Notes under the pieces: generated by a model | Database searches by the model: none | Told to the model about the DNA's origin: nothing | What the model saw: only the letters and a program-made list of their open reading frames with translations | Origin: Acidimicrobiales bacterium | Lineage (GTDB): Bacteria; Actinomycetota; Acidimicrobiia; Acidimicrobiales; Ilumatobacteraceae | Assembly: GCA_030832455.1 (NCBI GenBank) | Contig: JAURJB010000014.1 | Coordinates: forward strand, 1 to 33,181 | Direction: 5' to 3' | DNA: 33,181 nt | Part shown: positions 12,994 through 26,444 of the stretch, one piece after another | Position numbering within the stretch: position 1 is the first letter of the stretch | Layout of the letters: each line of letters starts with the position of its first letter | Program-made: the position numbers and the translations under genes

Positions 12994-13404
12994 TTACTTC
13001 TTCTTCTTTTTTGCAACTTTCTTAGGAGCAGCCTTTTTCGGTGCTGGCTTCTTTGGTGCTGCAGCCTTTTTTGGCGCTGGCTTTGCAACTGGCGCGATTG
13101 GCTTGGTGTTGAGTTTTGGTGCAGGAGCGGCGCCAAGAGCAATGTCCTTGAAACCCTTCAACGCGGTGATCTTTGCAACGGTCTTTGCTTTGATCTGAAT
13201 CGTCTCACCAGTGGCCGGGTTACGACCTTGGCGTGCTGGACGCTTGATCTTTGCAAACTTTGCAAAGCCTGAAATGTTTACGATTTCGCCCTTGGCAACT
13301 GTTGCCAAGATGACATCGATGGTTCCTTCGACAGTTGACGTTGCCGTCTTCTTGTCTACGCCGGTATGAAGTGCTACTGCTTGGATGAGGTCACGTTTTT
13401 TCAT
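12994..13404 (-). CDS. hupB: HU-type nucleoid protein with H1-like basic tail
   Basis: A 136-residue HupB-like protein. The N-terminal HU domain occupies residues 1 to ~90 (MKKRDLIQAVALHTG; the DNA-embracing arm RPARQGRNPATGETIQI). A tail of repeated PAPKKAAAPKK units, ending in a poly-Lys run, follows, as in actinobacterial HupB/Lsr2-era histone-like proteins. It compacts DNA and can affect global transcription. ATG 13404 is preferred over TTG 13410. TACATT at -13 to -8 supports a leaderless promoter. Its tail makes the ORF highly biased in composition; this is normal for the family. Confidence 0.92.
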   Translation of the reverse strand: MKKRDLIQAVALHTGVDKKTATSTVEGTIDVILATVAKGEIVNISGFAKFAKIKRPARQGRNPATGETIQIKAKTVAKITALKGFKDIALGAAPAPKLNTKPIAPVAKPAPKKAAAPKKPAPKKAAPKKVAKKKKK

Positions 13405-13444
13405 AATCAAAAATGTATAGCAACGGTGGCCTCGGGTAGTGGAT

Positions 13445-13490
13445 AGTGCCCATTTTCAGGGCACTTTTGAACCATCAGGGATAGCCTGAT
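13445..13490 (+). promoter_or_regulatory. Two inverted repeats over the OYE-gene promoter
   Basis: The first stem is AGTGCCC/GGGCACT (13445-13451 and 13459-13465), followed by TTT. The second is ATCAGG/CCTGAT (13474-13479 and 13485-13490), ending 4 bases before the ATG. The putative leaderless -10 box TAGCCT (13482-13487) is inside the second repeat. As DNA they look like operators for a repressor; as RNA they would look like a terminator plus a start-blocking stem. If the transcript is leaderless, the operator reading is preferred. Confidence 0.5.
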
Positions 13491-13494
13491 CGCC

Positions 13495-14571
13495 ATGGCC
13501 TCCCTTTTTGATTCAGTCCCACTTTCTCGTGGTCCAGCCCTTCCCAACCGATTCATGTTGTCTCCGCTCACTAACCACCAGAGCAACGCGGACGGCACGC
13601 TGTCAGATGGCGAGCATCATTGGCTTGAAATGCGTGCAACTGGTGGGTTTGGGCTGGTGATGACGTGTGCTTCACACGTGCAACGGGTGGGCCAGGGGTT
13701 CCCAGGGCAATTGGGTTGTTTTGGCGATCATCACCTTTCGGGCCTGACACAAATCGCCGACACCATTCGCGCAGCCGGAAAGGTGTCGTATGTGCAGTTG
13801 CACCATGCCGGAAATCGTTCACCGAAAGACCTCATTGGCGAAGCGCCAGTGTGCCCTTCGGACGATGCCGAAACGGGTGCGCGCGCCTTGACCCACGCAG
13901 AAGTAGAGCAACTCATTGCAGATTTTGTTGCAGCAGCAGTCCGTTGCGACAAAGCAGGCTTTGATGGCGTCGAACTACATGGTGCACACGGTTACATCCT
14001 CTGCCAGTTCCTTTCGCCCGAAATCAACAAGCGCACCGACGAGTTTGGCGGATCGTTAGAAAACCGCGCTCGCGTTTTGATGCGCATCGTTGATGGCGTG
14101 CGCGAGCATTGTCGACCTGATTTGCAACTTGCTGTGCGTTTGTCTCCCGAGCGATTCGGAATGAAAGTGGATGAAATCCGCGAAGTGTTTTCGTGGCTTG
14201 TGGCGAGCAACAAGATTGATCTCATTGACATGTCGTTGTGGGACGTGTTCAAGGAAGCACATGAGCCTGAGCATGCGGGCAAGCAGTTGCTTGAGTTGTT
14301 TACGTCTATTCCGCGCGGGGCAGTAAAGCTTGCTGTCGCGGGAAAAATCGCAACACCTCAAGATGCGCAGAAGGTGATCGATTTAGGTGCAGATATTGCT
14401 GCATTAGGCAGAGGTGCAATCTTGCATCACGACTTCCCAAACAAAACAAAAGCCGACCCCAACTTCACACCACGATCACTGCCTGTGGCAGCCGAGGTGT
14501 TGCGTTCCGAAGGGCTTTCTGAGCCCTTCGTGAACTACATGAAGGTATGGGCCGGCTTTGTAAGTGAGTAA
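13495..14571 (+). CDS. Old yellow enzyme family FMN oxidoreductase
   Basis: A 358-residue NADH:flavin oxidoreductase/OYE-type TIM barrel that uses FMN and usually reduces activated C=C bonds or acts on related small molecules. Motifs are NRFMLSPLTNHQS, the substrate-binding region YVQLHHAGNRS, HGAHGYILCQFLSPEINKRTDEFGGSLENR (His and the conserved GGSLENR), and phosphate-binding VAGKIATPQDAQKV with ALGRGAI. No iron-sulfur or extra NADPH domain is present. Its stop lies 4 bp from the convergent dehydrogenase stop. The substrate is unknown. Confidence 0.9.
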   Translation: MASLFDSVPLSRGPALPNRFMLSPLTNHQSNADGTLSDGEHHWLEMRATGGFGLVMTCASHVQRVGQGFPGQLGCFGDHHLSGLTQIADTIRAAGKVSYVQLHHAGNRSPKDLIGEAPVCPSDDAETGARALTHAEVEQLIADFVAAAVRCDKAGFDGVELHGAHGYILCQFLSPEINKRTDEFGGSLENRARVLMRIVDGVREHCRPDLQLAVRLSPERFGMKVDEIREVFSWLVASNKIDLIDMSLWDVFKEAHEPEHAGKQLLELFTSIPRGAVKLAVAGKIATPQDAQKVIDLGADIAALGRGAILHHDFPNKTKADPNFTPRSLPVAAEVLRSEGLSEPFVNYMKVWAGFVSE

Positions 14572-14575
14572 TTAA

Positions 14576-16996
14576 CTACGAACGAAGTCGATCGTTCTTC
14601 GGGTCAAACAACGGTTCTGCACCTACGGTGACAGCAACGCGCTTGCCAAAGATTTCAACTTCCAACTTTGTTCCTGCTGCTTCAAATTCTGGGAACACAT
14701 AGCCAAGAGCAATGCTCTTGTTCAACGTGAAGCTCCAGCCACCTGACGTTGCGATACCGATGCGCTTGTCGCCATTGAAGATTCCTGCGCAGAACGGAAC
14801 GTCTGCATCGCCATCAACGTCGAGCGTCATTGGCACGAAGCGGTATGGCGAACCCTTCTTCTTTTCTTCAACGAGTGCCGCCTTGCCCACGAACTCTTTG
14901 TTCATGTCAACAAAACGGTCAAGCGATGCATCGAATGGGGAGAATCCAATCTCAAGGTCGCCCTTCCATCCGCGGTAGCACTTGTCGAGACGAAGGCTGT
15001 CTACTGCGTAGATACCCATGTCGCGAATGCCATGCTTTTCGCCCGCTGCCCAAATTTGGTCATACAACGCAACCATCTGGTTGTTTGCTGCGTGCAACTC
15101 CCAGCCAAGTTCACCCACGTAGTTGACGCGCAGTGCAAGCACCGTGCCAACTGAGGTTTCAATCAACTTGTGTGACAACCATGGGAAGTCAGCATTTTCA
15201 AGTGAGGTAGTGGTCACCTTCGAGAGCACTTCACGAGCCTGTGGTCCTACCAAGATGAGCGAACCGTAATCTTTCGTTACGTTCTTAATGGTGACGCTGC
15301 CATCTGTTGGCATTGCCATCTCCAAAACATCAAGGTCGTGCCACTCGGAGCTTGCTGCACCAACGAGGTAGAACTTGTCTTCGGCCAAACGAGCAACCGT
15401 AAGTTCGCTCAGCAACTTGCCATCTGGCAAGAGTGCATAACTGAGGCTCAAGCGACCAACTTTTGGCAACTTGGTGCAAATGAGATTGTCGAGGAACGCA
15501 AATGCGCCTGGCCCTGCAACCTCAATCTTGGTGAAACCTGGAAGGTCGAGCAATGCAACGGTGTTTCGTGCTGCATGACATTCTTCGGCAACAACTGTGC
15601 GCCAACCGTTTTTGCGGAAGAACGACAAGGTGTGGTCGGTAACTTCGCCTTTCGGGTCGAAATAGGTTGGACGTTCCCAACCACCGCGAGCACCAAATGC
15701 TGCACCTTTTGCCTTCAATTTGTCGTACAACGGCGACAGGTATGAAGGTCGGCCAGCAGGACGCTCTTCAAATGGGAAGCCCATTGCGTATTCGTTTTGG
15801 TACACCTCAAGCGCGCGATCAATGGTGTACTGCGTGGTTGCGTACTCCTTGAAACGACGTCGATCGATTCCCCAAATATCGAACTCTGGACGACCATTCA
15901 ACATCCACTCTGCAATTGCTTTACCTGCACCACCACCTTGTGCGATACCAAAGCTGAACGTGTTGCAATGGAAGAAGTTGCGGAGTCCACGTTCTGGTCC
16001 GAGGTATGGGTTGCCGTCTGGTGCGTACGGAATGGGTCCGTTCACCACGCGAGCGATACCTGCTTCTGCAATCAATGGCACGCGCTCACCGGCATCAAGA
16101 ATTTGCGGTTCCAAACGCTCGAGTTCTGCTGGCCACAACTTTCCTGCGAAGTCGTCTGGAATTCCATCGAGCCACATTGCAGTGGACTGCCACTCGTACG
16201 GTCCGAGGATGTAACTGTGACGCTCCTGTCGCAAGTAGTACGACGTGTCTGGGTCGCGCAACAACGGAAGTGGATTGGCAAGTGCAGCAAGTTCTGGAAT
16301 TTCTTCCGTCACTAAGTACTGGTGAGCCATCGTCATGATTGGCAAGTGTCGACCAATGAGCGCCATCACTTCACCCGCTCGGTAACCAGCGGCGTTCAGC
16401 ACCATTTCGCATTCGATGGTTGCTTTGTCCGTGGTAACAATCCATTCGTGGTTTGGCTTTTGCTCAAGACCGGTTACGCGCTCGTGACGACGAATTTGTG
16501 CGCCCATTGCCCGAGCAGCGCGAGCAAGTGCTTGCGTTACTTGTGATGGGTCGATGTCGCCGTCTAGTGGGTCCCACAATGCGCCGACAAGATCATGTGT
16601 TTCTACGAATGGATAAATCTTTTGCAATTCAGAAGGAGTGAGGACGTCATACTCCATTCCGTTTGCGCGCGCCATTGACTTCACGTGCTTGAACTCGGCC
16701 ATGCGCTCTTCGCTGTGTGCGAGACGTACCGAACCCGTGACGTGATAGTTGATGGGGAAGTCAGGATCTTTGGCGAGTTCGGTGTACAACTCGGCGGTGT
16801 ACTTTTGCACCTTCATGATGCTCCAGCTACCCGAGTAGGTCGGAACGTTGCCGGCCGCGTGCCAGGTGGAGCCTTCGGTCAACTCGTCACGCTCGAGCAG
16901 CAACACATCGGTGCAGCCCATCTTTGCAAGGTGATACAAGGCGCTCACACCTGCAATGCCGCCGCCGATAATGACAATCCGTGCGCGCTCACTCAT
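14576..16996 (-). CDS. Dimethylglycine/sarcosine dehydrogenase-like flavoprotein (leftward)
   Basis: An 806-residue two-part enzyme. The N-terminal DAO-type FAD domain has GGGIAG (11-16) and GSTWHAAG, with His46 in the position that covalently holds FAD in DMGDH/SarDH relatives. The FAO_M-like linker and C-terminal GcvT-like half (YVGELGWELHAAN, DSLRLDKCYRGWKGDL) bind tetrahydrofolate and accept the formaldehyde unit from N-methyl oxidation. It is a diverged paralogue of the divergently transcribed 17126 gene. GGGGA serves as a Shine-Dalgarno before ATG 16996. The amine substrate (dimethylglycine, sarcosine or another) cannot be fixed from sequence. Confidence 0.88.
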   Translation of the reverse strand: MSERARIVIIGGGIAGVSALYHLAKMGCTDVLLLERDELTEGSTWHAAGNVPTYSGSWSIMKVQKYTAELYTELAKDPDFPINYHVTGSVRLAHSEERMAEFKHVKSMARANGMEYDVLTPSELQKIYPFVETHDLVGALWDPLDGDIDPSQVTQALARAARAMGAQIRRHERVTGLEQKPNHEWIVTTDKATIECEMVLNAAGYRAGEVMALIGRHLPIMTMAHQYLVTEEIPELAALANPLPLLRDPDTSYYLRQERHSYILGPYEWQSTAMWLDGIPDDFAGKLWPAELERLEPQILDAGERVPLIAEAGIARVVNGPIPYAPDGNPYLGPERGLRNFFHCNTFSFGIAQGGGAGKAIAEWMLNGRPEFDIWGIDRRRFKEYATTQYTIDRALEVYQNEYAMGFPFEERPAGRPSYLSPLYDKLKAKGAAFGARGGWERPTYFDPKGEVTDHTLSFFRKNGWRTVVAEECHAARNTVALLDLPGFTKIEVAGPGAFAFLDNLICTKLPKVGRLSLSYALLPDGKLLSELTVARLAEDKFYLVGAASSEWHDLDVLEMAMPTDGSVTIKNVTKDYGSLILVGPQAREVLSKVTTTSLENADFPWLSHKLIETSVGTVLALRVNYVGELGWELHAANNQMVALYDQIWAAGEKHGIRDMGIYAVDSLRLDKCYRGWKGDLEIGFSPFDASLDRFVDMNKEFVGKAALVEEKKKGSPYRFVPMTLDVDGDADVPFCAGIFNGDKRIGIATSGGWSFTLNKSIALGYVFPEFEAAGTKLEVEIFGKRVAVTVGAEPLFDPKNDRLRS

Positions 16997-17125
16997 ATAT
17001 ATGTCCCCGATTTCGTCAGATCAGGCCCGAGTCTGGGCCGGCCAGTGCGTGATATATCTCGCCGTGACATACTAGACAAGCAATTATTCGATGCCAATTT
17101 GTGCCAGTCCGCCCGAGGAGTTTCC
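16997..17125. promoter_or_regulatory. Divergent control region of the catabolic cluster
   Basis: A 129-bp spacer between the two divergent dehydrogenase genes. It holds an inverted repeat GGCCC (17024-17028)/GGGCC (17035-17039), AT-rich boxes near both starts and a good GAGGAG ribosome site (17115-17120) for the rightward gene. It probably contains back-to-back promoters and the operator of any cluster regulator; no regulator gene is seen in the window. Confidence 0.45.
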
Positions 17126-19573
17126 GTGTCAAATCTGCCAAGTAACGCCAAGGTGGTCATCGTCGGCGGCGGAATTGTCGGTTGCAGCATTGCTTACCAT
17201 CTCGCCAAGCGGGGAGAAACCGACGTCTTGCTTCTCGAGCGCAAGCAGCTCACGTCAGGAACCACCTGGCACGCAGCAGGTCTTGTTGGTCAGTTGCGCG
17301 CAACTCAAAACCTCACGCGTCTTGCGCAGTACACCACAAACCTTTTTGCAACTCTTGAAGAAGAAACTGGTCAAGCAACTGGTTTTCAACAGCGAGGTTC
17401 GGTTGCCATTGCAACCAATGAAGAACGCTTTGAAGAATTGAAGCGCGGTGCGTCAATGGCACGCGTGTTTGGTTTGCCAGTGAACATCATCACTCCTGCA
17501 GATGTGAAAGAACTTGTTCCACTCGCGCGCATTGACGACCTAGTTGGTGCGGTGCACTTGCCTGGTGACGGAGTGGTTAACCCGATCGACGTAACTCAAG
17601 CGCTTGCCAAAGGCGCGCGTGCTCACGGTGTGCGCATTGTTGAAAATGTAAAAGTTGATCGCATCGTTGTTGAAAATGGCCGTGCAGTTGGCGTTGAAGT
17701 TGAAGGACAAATCATTCGCGCTGAAGCAGTGGTCAACGCAGCAGGTATGTGGGCTCGCGAACTTGGCGATCAGGTTGGAGCAACTGTTCCATTGCATGCA
17801 GCCGAACACTTCTACATCGTTACTGAAGCTGTTGAAGGAATTTCTCCAACAATGCCAGTGCTTCGCGACCAAGATGGCTCGGGTTACTTCAAAGAAGATG
17901 CAGGCAAGTTGTTGGTGGGTTGGTTCGAACCAGTTGCCAAGCCTTGGGGCATGAAGGGAATTTCAGAAGAGTTCTCGTTCACTTCTTTGCCAGAAGATTT
18001 CGAACACATTGCACCACTTATTGAAAATGCAACTCACCGTATGAACCTCTTGGAACAAGTTGGAATTCGTTTGTTCTTTAACGGGCCAGAGTCGTTTACG
18101 CCTGATGATCGTTACTTGCTCGGTGAACAACCAGAAGTGAAAGGTCTGTACGTTGCCGCTGGCTTTAACTCCATTGGTATTCAGTCATCGGGTGGTGCCG
18201 GCAAGGTGCTTGCCGACTGGATCGTTGATGGTCGTCCGCCGATGGACTTGTGGGATGTTGATGTTCGTCGCGTGATGCCGTTCCAAAGCAACAAGAACTA
18301 CTTGCACGACCGCACGGTCGAGTCGCTTGGTTTGTTGTACGCAATGCACTGGCCATTCCGTCAACCCGAAACAGCACGCGGAGTGCGTCGTTCGCCATTG
18401 CATGATCGTTTGGTGGCAAAAGGCGCATGCTTCGGTGAAGTTGCTGGCTGGGAGCGCACCAACTGGTTTGCCCCTGCTGGTGTAAAGGCTGAATACGAAT
18501 ACACCTACGGCCGCCCAAACTGGTTTGAGTATTCGGCAGAAGAGTGCCGCGCAACCCGCGATGCCGTGGCCATGTTTGATCAGTCGTCGTTTGGCAAGTT
18601 TGTTCTCAAAGGCCCAGATGCCGAAAAGATCATCAACCGTGTGTCGGCCAACGACATGTCGGTGCCTGTTGGCAAGTTGGTGTACACGCAGTGGCTGAAC
18701 GAGCGAGGTGGAATTGAAGCCGACCTCACCGTTACTCGCGAATCGAAAGACCGCTATTTGATTGTTACGGCGGCAGCAACACAAACACGCGACTACACAT
18801 ATTTGAAAGACCACATTGGCAAAGATGAGCGCGCTGCGGTTATTGACGTCACGTCGGGATCAGCAGTGCTCAGCATCATGGGTCCAAATTCGCGTGCATT
18901 GTTGCAGTCGCTTACATCAACCGATATGTCGAACGAGGCGTTCCCATTTGGAACCTCACAAATCATTGACATCGGTTATGCGCGAGTGCGCGCTAGTCGC
19001 GTCACGTTCGTGGGTGAGCTTGGATGGGAGTTGTACATTCCAACCGAATTTGCAACAGGTGTATTTGATGTGATTGTTGCAGCAGGACCGCAGTTTGGTC
19101 TGAAGCATGCTGGTTACCACGCACTGAACTCGTTGCGCATGGAAAAGGGATATCGCCACTGGAGCCACGACGTGTCACCAGACGACACTCCGCTTGAGTC
19201 GGGCCTTGGTTTCACTGTTGCATGGAACAAGCCGGGCGGGTTCATTGGCAAGGAAGCTTTGTTGAAGCAAAAGGAAACTGGCGTGAAGAAGCGTTTGGTT
19301 CAGTTTGCAATGAAAGATCCAATGAAGAACCTGTACCACAACGAACCAATTTGGCGTAACGGCGAAATCGTCGGTCACATCACATCGGGAATGTTTGGGC
19401 ACGCCATCGGCAAGTCCATTGGTATGGGTTATGTTGAAAATCATCATGGCTTGGTCGATAAGGCCTTTGTTATGGATGGAACATATGAAATCGAAGTTGC
19501 GGGCGAGCGGTTTGCGGCAGAGGCGCAACTCGATCCGTTTTATGATCCAAAGAGTGAACGCGTAAAGGCATAA
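17126..19573 (+). CDS. Dimethylglycine/sarcosine dehydrogenase-like flavoprotein (rightward)
   Basis: An 815-residue FAD-dependent amine dehydrogenase fused to a GcvT-like half. GTG 17126 is chosen as start because GAGGAG lies 5 bases upstream and the FAD loop (VVIVGGGIVGCSIAYHLA) begins right after. The longer open frame to 16685 is only the antisense of the divergent gene. SGTTWHAAG has His49 for flavin attachment. The C-terminal half (FVGELGWELYIP, NSLRMEKGYRHWSHDV) is the folate-dependent C1-transfer domain. It leads an operon with the MttB-like gene 12 bp downstream. It likely oxidises an N-methyl group and passes the C1 unit to tetrahydrofolate. Confidence 0.9.
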   Translation: MSNLPSNAKVVIVGGGIVGCSIAYHLAKRGETDVLLLERKQLTSGTTWHAAGLVGQLRATQNLTRLAQYTTNLFATLEEETGQATGFQQRGSVAIATNEERFEELKRGASMARVFGLPVNIITPADVKELVPLARIDDLVGAVHLPGDGVVNPIDVTQALAKGARAHGVRIVENVKVDRIVVENGRAVGVEVEGQIIRAEAVVNAAGMWARELGDQVGATVPLHAAEHFYIVTEAVEGISPTMPVLRDQDGSGYFKEDAGKLLVGWFEPVAKPWGMKGISEEFSFTSLPEDFEHIAPLIENATHRMNLLEQVGIRLFFNGPESFTPDDRYLLGEQPEVKGLYVAAGFNSIGIQSSGGAGKVLADWIVDGRPPMDLWDVDVRRVMPFQSNKNYLHDRTVESLGLLYAMHWPFRQPETARGVRRSPLHDRLVAKGACFGEVAGWERTNWFAPAGVKAEYEYTYGRPNWFEYSAEECRATRDAVAMFDQSSFGKFVLKGPDAEKIINRVSANDMSVPVGKLVYTQWLNERGGIEADLTVTRESKDRYLIVTAAATQTRDYTYLKDHIGKDERAAVIDVTSGSAVLSIMGPNSRALLQSLTSTDMSNEAFPFGTSQIIDIGYARVRASRVTFVGELGWELYIPTEFATGVFDVIVAAGPQFGLKHAGYHALNSLRMEKGYRHWSHDVSPDDTPLESGLGFTVAWNKPGGFIGKEALLKQKETGVKKRLVQFAMKDPMKNLYHNEPIWRNGEIVGHITSGMFGHAIGKSIGMGYVENHHGLVDKAFVMDGTYEIEVAGERFAAEAQLDPFYDPKSERVKA

Positions 19574-21208: not shown

Positions 21209-22381
21209 ATGGCAAATGCATGGTTCGAAACTGTCGCCGAAGCTCAGCGCCGTGCGCAAAAGCGTTTGCCGAAATCGGTGTATGGCGCACTTGTTGCTGG
21301 CTCTGAAAAGGGTCTGTCGTCGCGCGACAACTTGGACTCATTCGATCAACTTGGCTTTGCGCCACATATTGCAGGTTTGTCTGCTCAGCGCGACATGGCA
21401 GTAAGCGTGATGGGGCAGCAGTTGTCGATGCCGGTCATCATTTCGCCAACAGGTGTGCAGGCAGTGCACCCACAGGGCGAAGTCGCTATCGCTCGTGCCG
21501 CGCAGAACCGTGGCATCCCAATGGGACTCAGTTCATTTGCCAGTAAGTCGGTTGAAGAGGTTGCTGCGGTAAATACGCAAACGTTGTTTCAGATGTATTG
21601 GTGTGGCGACAAAGACACATTGGTGCAACGCATGGAGCGTGCGCGCGCAGCAGGTGCAACTGGATTAATCGTCACTCTTGACTGGTCATTTTCAAATGGT
21701 CGCGACTGGGGAAGCCCATGGATTCCCGAAAAGATCAACCTGAAAGCAATGCTCAAGCTTGCTCCTGAAGTATTAGTGAAGCCCGAGTGGTTGTGGTCAT
21801 TTGCAAAGACTGGTCGCATTCCCGATCTCACTGCGCCAAACATGCAAAAGCCTGGTCAAGATGCTCCGACATTCTTTGGTGCGTATTACGAGTGGATGCA
21901 AACACCACTTCCATCGTGGGAGGACATTGCATGGTTGCGGCAGCAATGGGGTGGGCCGTTCATGGTGAAGGGTGTCAGTCGTCTCGATGATGCAAAGCGC
22001 GTAGTTGATTTGGGTGCTACTGCGCTGTCGGTTTCTAACCATGGTGGAAACAACTTGGATGGAACACCAGCACCAATTCGTGCGCTCCCAGCAATTGCCG
22101 ATGCAATCGGATCACAGATTGATGTGTTGCTCGACGGTGGCATTCGTCGCGGAAGCGATGTTGTGAAGGCAATGGCACTTGGAGCTCGCGCAGTCATGAT
22201 TGGTCGCGCGTACTTGTGGGGTCTTGCAGCAAATGGTCAGGCAGGAGTAGAAAACGTGCTTGACGTGATTCGCGGCGGTATTGACTCTGCATTGCTTGGG
22301 CTCGGAAAATCACACGTCAATGAACTCACGCGCGACGACGTGGTCGCACCACCAGATTTCTTCCGCAAACTAGGCGCGTAG
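21209..22381 (+). CDS. MftD-like FMN-dependent alpha-hydroxy-acid oxidase
   Basis: A 390-residue FMN TIM-barrel enzyme of the lactate/glycolate oxidase family. It is unusually close to MftD, the enzyme that deaminates the mycofactocin precursor: AWFETVAEAQRRAQKRLPKS, VIISPTGVQAVHP, SNHGGNNLDGTPAPIRALPA, LLDGGIRRGSDVVKAMALGA and AYLWGLAANGQAGVENVLDV all match my memory of mycobacterial MftD. No mftA, mftB, mftC, mftE or mftF is visible nearby. It could be a real MftD away from its cluster, or a paralogue recruited to oxidise a catabolic intermediate. The next gene starts 20 bp later, so it is part of the same rightward run. Confidence 0.88.
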   Translation: MANAWFETVAEAQRRAQKRLPKSVYGALVAGSEKGLSSRDNLDSFDQLGFAPHIAGLSAQRDMAVSVMGQQLSMPVIISPTGVQAVHPQGEVAIARAAQNRGIPMGLSSFASKSVEEVAAVNTQTLFQMYWCGDKDTLVQRMERARAAGATGLIVTLDWSFSNGRDWGSPWIPEKINLKAMLKLAPEVLVKPEWLWSFAKTGRIPDLTAPNMQKPGQDAPTFFGAYYEWMQTPLPSWEDIAWLRQQWGGPFMVKGVSRLDDAKRVVDLGATALSVSNHGGNNLDGTPAPIRALPAIADAIGSQIDVLLDGGIRRGSDVVKAMALGARAVMIGRAYLWGLAANGQAGVENVLDVIRGGIDSALLGLGKSHVNELTRDDVVAPPDFFRKLGA

Positions 22382-22401: not shown

Positions 22402-24111
22402 ATGGCCCGTCGGACACGAAGTTTCGAACCCAACGCCTCACAGTCGGTAACTCTGCCGAGTGGGCAAATTGCCCATGAGCTACATGTTGAACAATCTCAT
22501 CGTTTGGCCCGAACGTTTAGCGAAGTGTGCCCCGGTGTGTGGTGCTTCGTTGGCAACGGATTGTCAAATCAGTCGTTTATTGATGCGCCAGATGGCATCA
22601 TTGCAATTGACACGGGTGAGTCAATAGAAGAGATGAACGAAGCAATTGCCGAATTACGCAAGGTGTCTCAGCGTCCAATCGTTGCAGTGATGTATACGCA
22701 CTTTCATTATGTAGATGGCACAAAAGCCGTAATCGCCGAGAACAATGGCAAGCAGGTGCCGATTTGGGGGCATGAGAAAATCGCAGAGAACCGACGCCGC
22801 ACCGCGAGCGAAATTGCTCCTGCGTATGGCCGTGGACTGGTTGAGCAATTTGCCATGCAGTTGCCAGAAGACGGAGAGGATGGCCGTGTCAATGTGGGGT
22901 TGGGCCACTTTTACCGCAATCCACAGCATGCACCGTTTACTCCGGGGTTCATTGAGCCAACGCACACCTTTGGCGCAGCGGCGAAGATCACCGTTGCGGG
23001 TTTAAATATTGAAGTAACCCATGCACCATCGGATGCCGATGACTCGGTGACGTATTGGATTCCTTCTCTTGGTGTTGCCGTGAACAACTTGGTCTGGCCA
23101 GTGTTGTTCAACGTGTTTGCAATTCGCGGCGAGGAGTATCGCGATCCACGAATTTTGTTGAAGGGGATTGATCACCTGTTGTCGCTGAATGCAGCACATC
23201 TAGTTGGGGCACACGGTCCACATCTTTCAGGAGTAACTGAAATCGCAACGCGTGTCACAAAATACCGTGACTCCATTCAATTCATGTGGGATCAAACGGT
23301 GCGTGCCACGAACGCTGGAATGACCAGCACAGAAATTGCAGAGTCGGTTGACTTGCCAGAAACATTTGATGGTGATTATTTAACATCAGAGTTATATGGC
23401 GTGGTTGAGCACCATGTACGCCAAATTCGCACAGGTTTGTTTGGTTTTTTTGATGGGGACGAAGCAAACTTGTTTCCTACACCACCGCGCGAGCGCTCTG
23501 CTCGACTCATTGCAGGATTTGGCGGAAGAGACGCAGTGCGAAAGCAAGTTGATGAAGCACTAACGAATGACGACGCTCGTTGGGCGTTGGAGCTTGGTTC
23601 GTGGTTGGTGCGAAGCGATGGTGCAGAAGACGCAGATCGCGCGTTGCTTGCGCGTGCCTTGAGGATGGTTGCGCAACGCACGAGCGCTGCAAATATTCGC
23701 AACTGGTGTTTAACGCGTGCACGTGTGCTGGATGGAACCGCCAATGTTGCTCGCTTGAAGAATGTCCACTTGCGTAAACCAACGCTGCTGAGTGCTGGTT
23801 ATGAAAAGGCAGTGCACATTCTGCGTGTATTACTCGTACCAGAGCGTGCAAAGAATGTGGATATGAAATTGAAGTTTGTGCTGGATGGAAATACGACAGG
23901 TTTGCATATTCGCAATTTTGTAGCCGTGCCATATTCAGGGGTTGATGCTCAAGCAACGATTACGGGAACTCTTGATACATGGACGAACGTGTTATCGGGG
24001 TCGACGACTCTGGCTGCAGTGATCTCAGATGGATTGTTGTCGATTACTGGTGATTCAGATGGTGCAGTCAGTGCACTACGTTGCTTTGATGTGAAGGGTT
24101 TAGCTTCGTAA
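22402..24111 (+). CDS. Alkylsulfatase-like metallo-beta-lactamase-fold hydrolase
   Basis: A 569-residue protein with the layout of SdsA-type alkylsulfatases: an N-terminal MBL domain, a middle dimerisation domain (YGVVEHHVRQIRTGLFGFFDG, RNWCLTRARVLDG), and a C-terminal SCP2-like domain. The metal motif reads THFHYVDGTKAV (H100, H102), whereas SdsA has THSHADHFGG. The Asp-His of HxHxDH is thus replaced or shifted, as in some uncharacterised relatives. LVGAHGPHLSG later could supply metal ligands. No signal peptide, so cytosolic. Its last base overlaps the sulfatase gene (TAATG). It may hydrolyse alkyl sulfate esters, but the altered site makes the activity uncertain. Confidence 0.82.
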   Translation: MARRTRSFEPNASQSVTLPSGQIAHELHVEQSHRLARTFSEVCPGVWCFVGNGLSNQSFIDAPDGIIAIDTGESIEEMNEAIAELRKVSQRPIVAVMYTHFHYVDGTKAVIAENNGKQVPIWGHEKIAENRRRTASEIAPAYGRGLVEQFAMQLPEDGEDGRVNVGLGHFYRNPQHAPFTPGFIEPTHTFGAAAKITVAGLNIEVTHAPSDADDSVTYWIPSLGVAVNNLVWPVLFNVFAIRGEEYRDPRILLKGIDHLLSLNAAHLVGAHGPHLSGVTEIATRVTKYRDSIQFMWDQTVRATNAGMTSTEIAESVDLPETFDGDYLTSELYGVVEHHVRQIRTGLFGFFDGDEANLFPTPPRERSARLIAGFGGRDAVRKQVDEALTNDDARWALELGSWLVRSDGAEDADRALLARALRMVAQRTSAANIRNWCLTRARVLDGTANVARLKNVHLRKPTLLSAGYEKAVHILRVLLVPERAKNVDMKLKFVLDGNTTGLHIRNFVAVPYSGVDAQATITGTLDTWTNVLSGSTTLAAVISDGLLSITGDSDGAVSALRCFDVKGLAS

Positions 24112-26444
24112 TGACGAAGAAACTGCCTCACGCAACACCAGCGTTTACGGGAACAAAAGAACGCCTAATAACCCAATCAACACCCCGCAAACTCGAGCGC
24201 CAATTGGCGCCTGAGGGTGCGCCAAACATTGTGCTGATTTTGCTCGACGATGTTGGCTTCGGTTCGTTTGGAACTTTTGGTGGCCCAGTGCCAACACCAA
24301 CCCTTGATCGCATTGCCAACATCGGCTTGCGTTACAACCAATTCCACACCACTGCACTGTGCTCACCAACGCGAGCAGCAATGCTTACTGGCCGCAATCA
24401 TCACTCGGTACATATGGGTGGCATTACGGAAATCGCAAACTCATTTCCTGGTTACGACAGCGCGATTCCACCTGAAGCAGCAACCATGGCGCAGGTATTG
24501 CGCATGTCGGGTTACGCAACGTCGGTGTTTGGCAAGTGGCACCTTGCGCCATCTTGGGAGCAAAGCCCTGCTGGCCCATTCGATCGCTGGCCAACAGGTC
24601 TTGGTTTCGACAAGTTCTACGGAATTATTGGCGCAGAGTCCTCGCAATGGGAACCACCCGTGTACGACCAAACCACGCCAATCTCTCCACATGTCGGCAA
24701 CCCGGATTATCACCTGACCGAAGATTTGGCAGATCAGACCATCGCATGGATTGAGCGTCAACAAGCATCACGCCCGAATCAACCGTTCTTTACATATTTC
24801 TCTACTCCTGCATTGCATGCACCGCATCATGTTGCTCGCGAATGGATCGATAAGTTCACAGGTCAATTCGATGGCGGTTGGGACGTATTGCGCGAAGAAA
24901 TTTACGAGCGTCAACTGAAACTCGGAGTCATTCCACCGAATACAGCTCTCACAAAACGACCGGAACAAGTTCCTTCATGGAGCGATTATCCAGAGCGTTA
25001 CCGACCAGTTGCTACACGACTCATGGAAACCTTCGCTGGCTTTCTAGCGCACACCGACGCACAGGTTGGGCGAGTAATTGATGCACTCGAGCGTCTGAAT
25101 ATCATGGACAACACGTTGGTGGTGTATATCACTGGCGACAACGGTGCTTCTGCCGAAGGAACGATTCATGGTGCATGGAGCGCTCCATCGTTTCAAAACG
25201 GTATACCGGAAGACCCTGAGTGGTTGCTTGACCATATTGATGACTTCGGTACGGCAAAGTGCGAAAACCATTTCAATGTTGGTTGGGCCTGGGCGCTTGA
25301 CTCGCCATTCCAGTGGATGAAGCAAGTTGCCTCACATTTTGGTGGAACTCGCAATGCAATGGCGCTCAGTTGGCCAAAGAAAATTCGTGATGCAGGTGGT
25401 CTGCGCGAACAGTTCCATCATGTGATTGACCTTGTACCAACGATTTATGAACTCGTAGGAATTGAAGCCCCTACACATGTCAACGGCATCGAGCAGATGC
25501 CAATTCATGGAACATCAATGGCATATTCGTTTGATAACGCAAGCGCACCAAGCACGCACACCACTCAGTATTTTGAAATTCTGGGCAATCGCGCCATCTA
25601 TCACGAGGGTTGGATGGCTTCGTGTTTCCATGGTCGTTTGCCATGGATACGCCTGCAGGGTCTTGATTTCGACGGCCCTCAAGAGGTGTGGGAGCTGTAC
25701 AACATCAGCGAAGACTTCTCACAAGCTGTGAATCTTGTGGAACAGTTCCCTGAGAAACTTGCAGAGCTGCAAGAGCTGTTTCATCAAAATGCAATTCAGT
25801 ACGACATTTATCCATTGCGTGATGCGGGTTCGCCGCGTAATAGCGACTTCGCAGTTCCGCATTCACTCGACGGAATAAACAAAGTGACATACACACGAGC
25901 CCACGTGCGTATGCCCGAGAGCTCGGTGTTAAATGTGAAGAACTGTTCGTGGAAAATGACGGCTGAAATCGTGGTTCCAGTAGGCGGGGCACGGGGAGTG
26001 ATTGCGTGTCAGGGCGGAAACATGGCTGGATGGTCGCTGTATATCGATGAATCGGGAAAACCGACATATCACTACAACTGGTTTGGTCATATGCATTCAG
26101 TTGTGAGCGACACTCAAGCGCTAAAACCTGGACGCCATGAGATTGTCGTTGATTTCGCTTACGACGGTGGCTTTGGCGCAGGTGGAGTTGCGACGTTGTA
26201 TGTGGACGATCGTGAAGCAGGAAGTATGCGCATTGATAAAACTGTGCCACTCGTGTATTCGATGAGTGGAGAAACGTTTGACATTGGCGTGGATACCGGG
26301 TCGCCAGTGGGGAACTATCCACATTTGTACACATGCACTGCCGACATTGTGGGTGTGACGATTGAACGACTCAATGAACCAAGTGCAACGACCAAACAAA
26401 AAATGCGTGAAGGCGAATTTCGCGCAAGTATCAGTACTCAATAA
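24111..26444 (+). CDS. Formylglycine-dependent sulfatase (arylsulfatase AtsA-like)
   Basis: A 777-residue type I sulfatase. CSPTR at residues 84-88 is the maturation motif in which Cys84 becomes formylglycine, and it is followed by AAMLTGR. Other site elements are LLDDVGFG (metal Asp46/47), FGKWHLAP (Lys/His), TGDNGASAEG (Asp/Asn) and PALHAPHH. The C-terminal third is an extra beta-rich domain (from about residue 600), as in long AtsA-type enzymes. No signal peptide is present, so it acts in the cytosol. It is translationally coupled to the MBL-type protein, giving two unrelated sulfatase folds in one operon. A formylglycine-generating enzyme is not seen here and must be elsewhere. Confidence 0.92.
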   Translation: MTKKLPHATPAFTGTKERLITQSTPRKLERQLAPEGAPNIVLILLDDVGFGSFGTFGGPVPTPTLDRIANIGLRYNQFHTTALCSPTRAAMLTGRNHHSVHMGGITEIANSFPGYDSAIPPEAATMAQVLRMSGYATSVFGKWHLAPSWEQSPAGPFDRWPTGLGFDKFYGIIGAESSQWEPPVYDQTTPISPHVGNPDYHLTEDLADQTIAWIERQQASRPNQPFFTYFSTPALHAPHHVAREWIDKFTGQFDGGWDVLREEIYERQLKLGVIPPNTALTKRPEQVPSWSDYPERYRPVATRLMETFAGFLAHTDAQVGRVIDALERLNIMDNTLVVYITGDNGASAEGTIHGAWSAPSFQNGIPEDPEWLLDHIDDFGTAKCENHFNVGWAWALDSPFQWMKQVASHFGGTRNAMALSWPKKIRDAGGLREQFHHVIDLVPTIYELVGIEAPTHVNGIEQMPIHGTSMAYSFDNASAPSTHTTQYFEILGNRAIYHEGWMASCFHGRLPWIRLQGLDFDGPQEVWELYNISEDFSQAVNLVEQFPEKLAELQELFHQNAIQYDIYPLRDAGSPRNSDFAVPHSLDGINKVTYTRAHVRMPESSVLNVKNCSWKMTAEIVVPVGGARGVIACQGGNMAGWSLYIDESGKPTYHYNWFGHMHSVVSDTQALKPGRHEIVVDFAYDGGFGAGGVATLYVDDREAGSMRIDKTVPLVYSMSGETFDIGVDTGSPVGNYPHLYTCTADIVGVTIERLNEPSATTKQKMREGEFRASISTQ

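Follow-up and report, generated by a model that had tools for sequence, protein, structure and literature searches.

The DNA analysed here, referred to below as the window, is a stretch of 33,181 nucleotides that constitutes contig C25 of a draft genome (1.47 Mb, 119 contigs, 88% complete). The genes of interest are collected in Table 1. The reading frame of mftD runs from ATG to stop over exactly the interval in which the original prediction, made from the sequence alone, had placed a protein typical of MftD.

Table 1. Genes of the window in the region of mftD, in order of position.
Feature	Coordinates	Strand	Basis
Short OYE-type FMN oxidoreductase, NamA-like, 358 aa	13495..14571	+	Pfam
Second, divergent FAD-DAO + GCV_T fusion	14576..16996	-	Pfam
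FAD-DAO + GCV_T fusion, dimethylglycine/sarcosine-dehydrogenase (DMGDH) type	16685..19573	+	Pfam
MttB-superfamily methyltransferase, 523 aa	19586..21157	+	trimeth_pyl, 358.6 bits (cut-off of 525 missed)
mftD, predicted FMN-dependent pre-mycofactocin synthase, 390 aa, sole copy found in the genome	21209..22381	+	NCBIfam, tree, residues
Metallo-beta-lactamase fold protein with alkyl-sulfatase dimerisation domain	22402..24111	+	Pfam
Sulfatase family protein, overlapping the preceding gene	24111..26444	+	Pfam

The frame of the MttB-superfamily gene is open without TAG read-through, and the score of its product is under the pyrrolysine-type cut-off. The protein is paired with two DMGDH-type fusions, and together they probably represent a betaine-type demethylation group. 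In the plus-strand fusion the FAD domain starts at residue 156, and translation probably begins downstream of the listed GTG. The short OYE-type protein does not belong to the mycofactocin OYE families, its scores being 150.8 bits for TIGR03997 (cut-off 793) and 67.7 bits for TIGR03996 (cut-off 628). The gaps around mftD are 51 bp from the upstream MttB gene and 20 bp to the downstream metallo-beta-lactamase gene, which suggests that mftD may be co-transcribed with the surrounding DMGDH-MttB-sulfatase genes. When MftA, MftB, MftC, MftE and MftF from the same genome were used as tblastn queries, none was found in the window.

In profile searches, the protein encoded by mftD scores 688.2 bits against the NCBIfam model for the pre-mycofactocin synthase MftD (TIGR03966, cut-off 470.85), and the match covers residues 3-385 of 390, i.e. 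the full length. The second-best NCBIfam model is that of L-lactate dehydrogenase. The LldD and lactate oxidase models give 255, 232 and 157 bits, all under their cut-offs of 376, 550 and 645, respectively, the first being the L-lactate dehydrogenase model and the last that of lactate oxidase. The sequence identity is 62-81% to MftDs adjoining mftC in other Actinobacteria and 33-41% to the eight LDH/GOX relatives used, while the closest named records, from Acidimicrobium/Ilumatobacteraceae MAGs, are 96-98% identical.

One could imagine that the protein is an ordinary lactate/glycolate oxidase or dehydrogenase that is misnamed MftD. It does share the FMN TIM-barrel family with LldD, glycolate oxidase and human hydroxyacid oxidase 1 (HAO1), with a PF01070 match of 355 bits, and according to the alignment to HAO1 the catalytic H278, K254, D158 and R165 are retained. 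The scores given above speak against this identity, however, and the tree together with the diagnostic residues refutes it, such that we consider it extremely improbable. The tree, a quick IQ-TREE calculation with SH-aLRT as the only support measure, was based on 104 MftD-like rows and the eight LDH/GOX relatives. It parts the MftD clade from LDH/GOX at a support of 100, and the window protein is located inside a set of 50 rows, supported at 98, that includes 19 MftDs adjoining mftC. Detached and adjacent MftDs are interleaved on this tree, with 12-13 label changes, where some of the rows called detached come from contigs too short for mftC to be seen, so that adjacency is, if anything, undercounted.

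The residues point in the same direction. At the 162 columns that are near-invariant in adjacent MftDs, the window protein departs at 5, mostly by conservative changes, and it retains all 51 of the MftD-specific positions, i.e. those that are near-invariant and in addition set MftD apart from LDH/GOX. Among the latter are Ala27 and Asn281, which throughout MftD take the places of HAO1 Tyr26 and Arg263. These two HAO1 residues we take to be the binders of the substrate carboxylate, and the window protein would therefore have no ordinary carboxylate clamp. The dN/dS values relative to related genes are 0.02-0.08, which corresponds to strong purifying selection on mftD.

We now turn to the remainder of the mycofactocin pathway. 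A profile search of the genome located MftC on a different contig, C42, with 597 bits, and an NCBIfam scan of this contig gave MftA (54 bits), MftB (87.5 bits), MftE (265 bits) and MftF (359 bits), as well as an NDMA-dependent alcohol dehydrogenase beside mftA (TIGR03989, 561 bits), all above the respective cut-offs. The statement in the original prediction that no mft genes are found near mftD is thus correct for the window but not for the genome, and the gene is not an orphan. Both the reading of the contig and the scan show that mftD is absent from the C42 cluster, and that a PlsY-like and a DedA-like gene lie between mftC and mftE, at the expected mftD site. The genome-wide search for MftD returned a single match above the cut-off, namely the window copy; a second mftD could be missing from a draft that is 88% complete, and the congener G003, which is 98% complete, also has one mftD. 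Judged by gene content, the pathway is complete in this genome and split over two loci, with mftD on C25 and the other genes on C42.

The PlsY-like and DedA-like (undecaprenyl-phosphate transporter-like) genes are present between mftC and mftE in the genus of the window and in some relatives (L124:3365-4639, with equivalents in L125-L131, L136 and L143). In many mft loci of the family, a PlsY-like gene follows mftC. These genes may have a connection with glycosylation or with lipid carriers.

As C25 and C42 are contigs of a fragmented draft, we also considered that the window contig might have been mis-binned, with the C42 cluster coming from another organism. The split layout recurs, however, in the congeners G001, G003, G004 and G015, with MttB-MftD on one contig and mftABC-PlsY-DedA-EF on another, and mis-binning is therefore very unlikely.

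On the basis of these results, we find it very probable that the window gene encodes a true, working pre-mycofactocin synthase that was relocated out of the mft cluster, which is the first of the two options put forward in the original prediction. In common with MftD as represented by TIGR03966 and Rv0694 of M. tuberculosis, it has a full-length match well above the cut-off, the diagnostic residues, and the remaining mft pathway in the genome. It differs in that the contig is not that of mftABCEF and in that the gene is within a DMGDH/MttB/sulfatase group. These catabolic rather than mft neighbours, together with the short gaps that suggest co-transcription, are counted against this reading. 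As far as the sequence can tell, we are dealing with a bona fide and otherwise ordinary MftD in an unusual location.

In the published pathway, AHDP is liberated by MftE and deaminated by MftD, and the pre-mycofactocin formed in this way is then glycosylated (PMC11778925). In the present organism, the MftA encoded on C42, which has the C-terminus IDGMCGVY, would be bound by MftB, and its C-terminal Val-Tyr would be decarboxylated and cyclised by MftC. AHDP would be set free by MftE, and the window MftD would convert it to pre-mycofactocin by oxidative deamination, yielding the redox-active keto-amide; for this catalytic step we draw on the published work on mycobacterial MftD. Glycosylation of pre-mycofactocin by MftF would follow, and the finished cofactor would be used by the NDMA-type alcohol dehydrogenase beside mftA.

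The distribution of the genes was examined in a survey of 248 genomes of the order Acidimicrobiales with a completeness of at least 90%, with G000 (87.8%) taken in as well. MftD is present in 69 of the 248 genomes and MftC in 107. Of the 69, all but three possess both genes, i.e. 66 (odds ratio 74, p = 1e-27, ignoring phylogeny). The three genomes with MftD in which MftC was undetected (G198, G207 and G301) are drafts of 92-98% completeness, and each has a congener possessing MftC; the same combination is seen in G009, which is 55% complete. In the 66 genomes with both, MftD is within 10 kb of mftC in 33 cases, farther away on the same contig in 7, and on another contig in 26. Among the distant pairs on the same contig are those of two single-contig genomes, in which the genes lie 162 kb and, in G040, 3.6 Mb apart. 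Half of the order's MftDs that co-occur with MftC are thus more than 10 kb away from it or on another contig, and mft genes missing beside an mftD therefore carry no information on function. Annotation based on gene clusters will here miss or misname mycofactocin genes. In the literature collection searched, we found no paper linking mycofactocin to Acidimicrobi-.

These data also bear on the second option of the original prediction, in which the protein is an MftD paralogue that has come to oxidise some intermediate of catabolism, in the present setting that of the adjoining betaine/dimethylglycine type. The short intergenic gaps would fit this scenario, and MttB and two DMGDH-type genes adjoin MftD in several members of the genus (L044, L047, L048, L145 and L147). 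This adjacency is, however, limited to the genus: in other lineages the genes next to a separated MftD are unrelated to these, and beyond genus level we found no neighbourhood common to detached MftDs of different lineages. Since detachment is common throughout the order and the neighbours are shared only within the genus, we regard the catabolic setting as a landing place specific to the lineage, perhaps in an operon, and do not take it to indicate a catabolic role. Furthermore, the protein nests among mftC-adjacent MftDs and is under strong purifying selection, and both the complete set of diagnostic positions and the lack of the carboxylate-binding Tyr and Arg argue against a change of role. 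Finally, no MftD is left in this genome's mft cluster, and loss of the original function would therefore leave the pathway lacking its step. Recruitment to catabolism is thus very improbable; a position inside MftD with an mft cluster elsewhere, which the original prediction had named as speaking against its own idea, is essentially what we find. A tempting false lead, that of an MftD turned catabolic, is thereby removed.

Second copies of MftD were encountered in other genomes. G113 has two MftDs above the cut-off on different contigs (C11:7928-9076 and C28:30283-31428), and in Rhodococcus/Rhodococcoides a second MftD is present in tandem (L096:11173, L099:11176, L100:11186, L101:11207 and L104:11195). 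The tandem copies are 67-70% identical to the window protein and form a clade of their own with a support of 100. If an MftD paralogue with an altered role is sought, these copies are, on the sequence comparisons, better candidates than the gene in the window.

The explanation of the gene itself is mostly ordinary; what makes the case interesting is its split architecture, together with a complementarity between MftD and the mycofactocin OYE proteins. It has been noted that some mft genomes are without TIGR03966, although the majority have it (Haft, PMC3023750). In Acidimicrobiales, 41 of the 107 MftC genomes are without MftD, and MftE is usually present in these. An altered MftA core in the MftD-less clusters can be rejected, as all recovered MftAs end with IDGMCGVY or IDGLCGVY. 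In a local comparison of mft loci, the sole family that was found near mftC only in MftD-less genomes is a 632-aa OYE protein, present in 10 of 20 MftD-less loci vs 0 of 20. Searching the 107 MftC genomes with TIGR03996 and TIGR03997 gave 64 with MftD only, 37 with OYE only, 2 with both and 4 with neither (Fisher p = 9e-22, ignoring kinship), where G113, with a TIGR03997 match of 605 bits that is below the cut-off of 793, is counted as MftD only. Of the two genomes with both, G120 has two mftC loci and G209 has 6% contamination. The four with neither at the thresholds used (G127, G181, G234 and G278) represent either assembly gaps or a third solution. MftG as the gene replaced by OYE was rejected, MftG being above its cut-off in 1 of the 248 genomes.

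The pattern was also checked on an MftC tree of 122 rows, some of them from less complete genomes and the family-level ones searched without TIGR03997. Its well-supported branches yield 11 independent pairs in which one member has MftD and the other does not. In an average of 6.3 of these pairs OYE differs in the opposite direction, in none does it differ in the same direction, and in 4.7 it does not differ at all (median p 0.03). Seven families (f1, f3, f13, f15, f17, f45 and f50) contain both the MftD and the OYE types, and the switch has therefore happened repeatedly.

An example of an OYE pair in an MftD-less relative is found at L167:9977-11878 and 13355-15376 (TIGR03996 and TIGR03997). 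Behind the FMN barrel, OYE_1 and OYE_2 have a C-x2-C-x3-C-x11-C motif and a dinucleotide fold. In these features they resemble 2,4-dienoyl-CoA reductase, which was the best PDB match of the single OYE tested. Amine dehydrogenases, such as trimethylamine and histamine dehydrogenase, have the same architecture, and oxidative deamination of AHDP by an OYE is therefore chemically plausible. A single paper in the literature collection searched combines 'mycofactocin' with 'old yellow enzyme'; it refers to mycofactocin once, and judging from title and abstract its topic is coumarin degradation.

We tentatively propose that in Acidimicrobiales the MftD step could fall to MftD in some lineages and, in their sister lineages, to FadH/OYE flavoproteins that are unrelated to it, TIGR03996/TIGR03997, which are of the FMN, 4Fe-4S and FAD type. 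This would be a non-orthologous replacement accompanied by many reciprocal losses, and the detached mftD of the window might conceivably be one side of the exchange. The exclusivity does not hold everywhere, as 11 of 26 mft genomes of other orders have both TIGR03997 and MftD; 10 of these 11 TIGR03997 matches are above the cut-off, and several of the genomes have TIGR03996 in the same cluster. Because MftD and OYE coexist outside the order, in Rhodococcus, Prescottella, Amycolatopsis and Pseudonocardia, the OYE may serve some other function linked to mycofactocin, and the existence of two types of cluster may underlie the pattern. The complementarity provides a testable candidate for the completion of the cofactor in MftD-less species, which have been noted since 2011.
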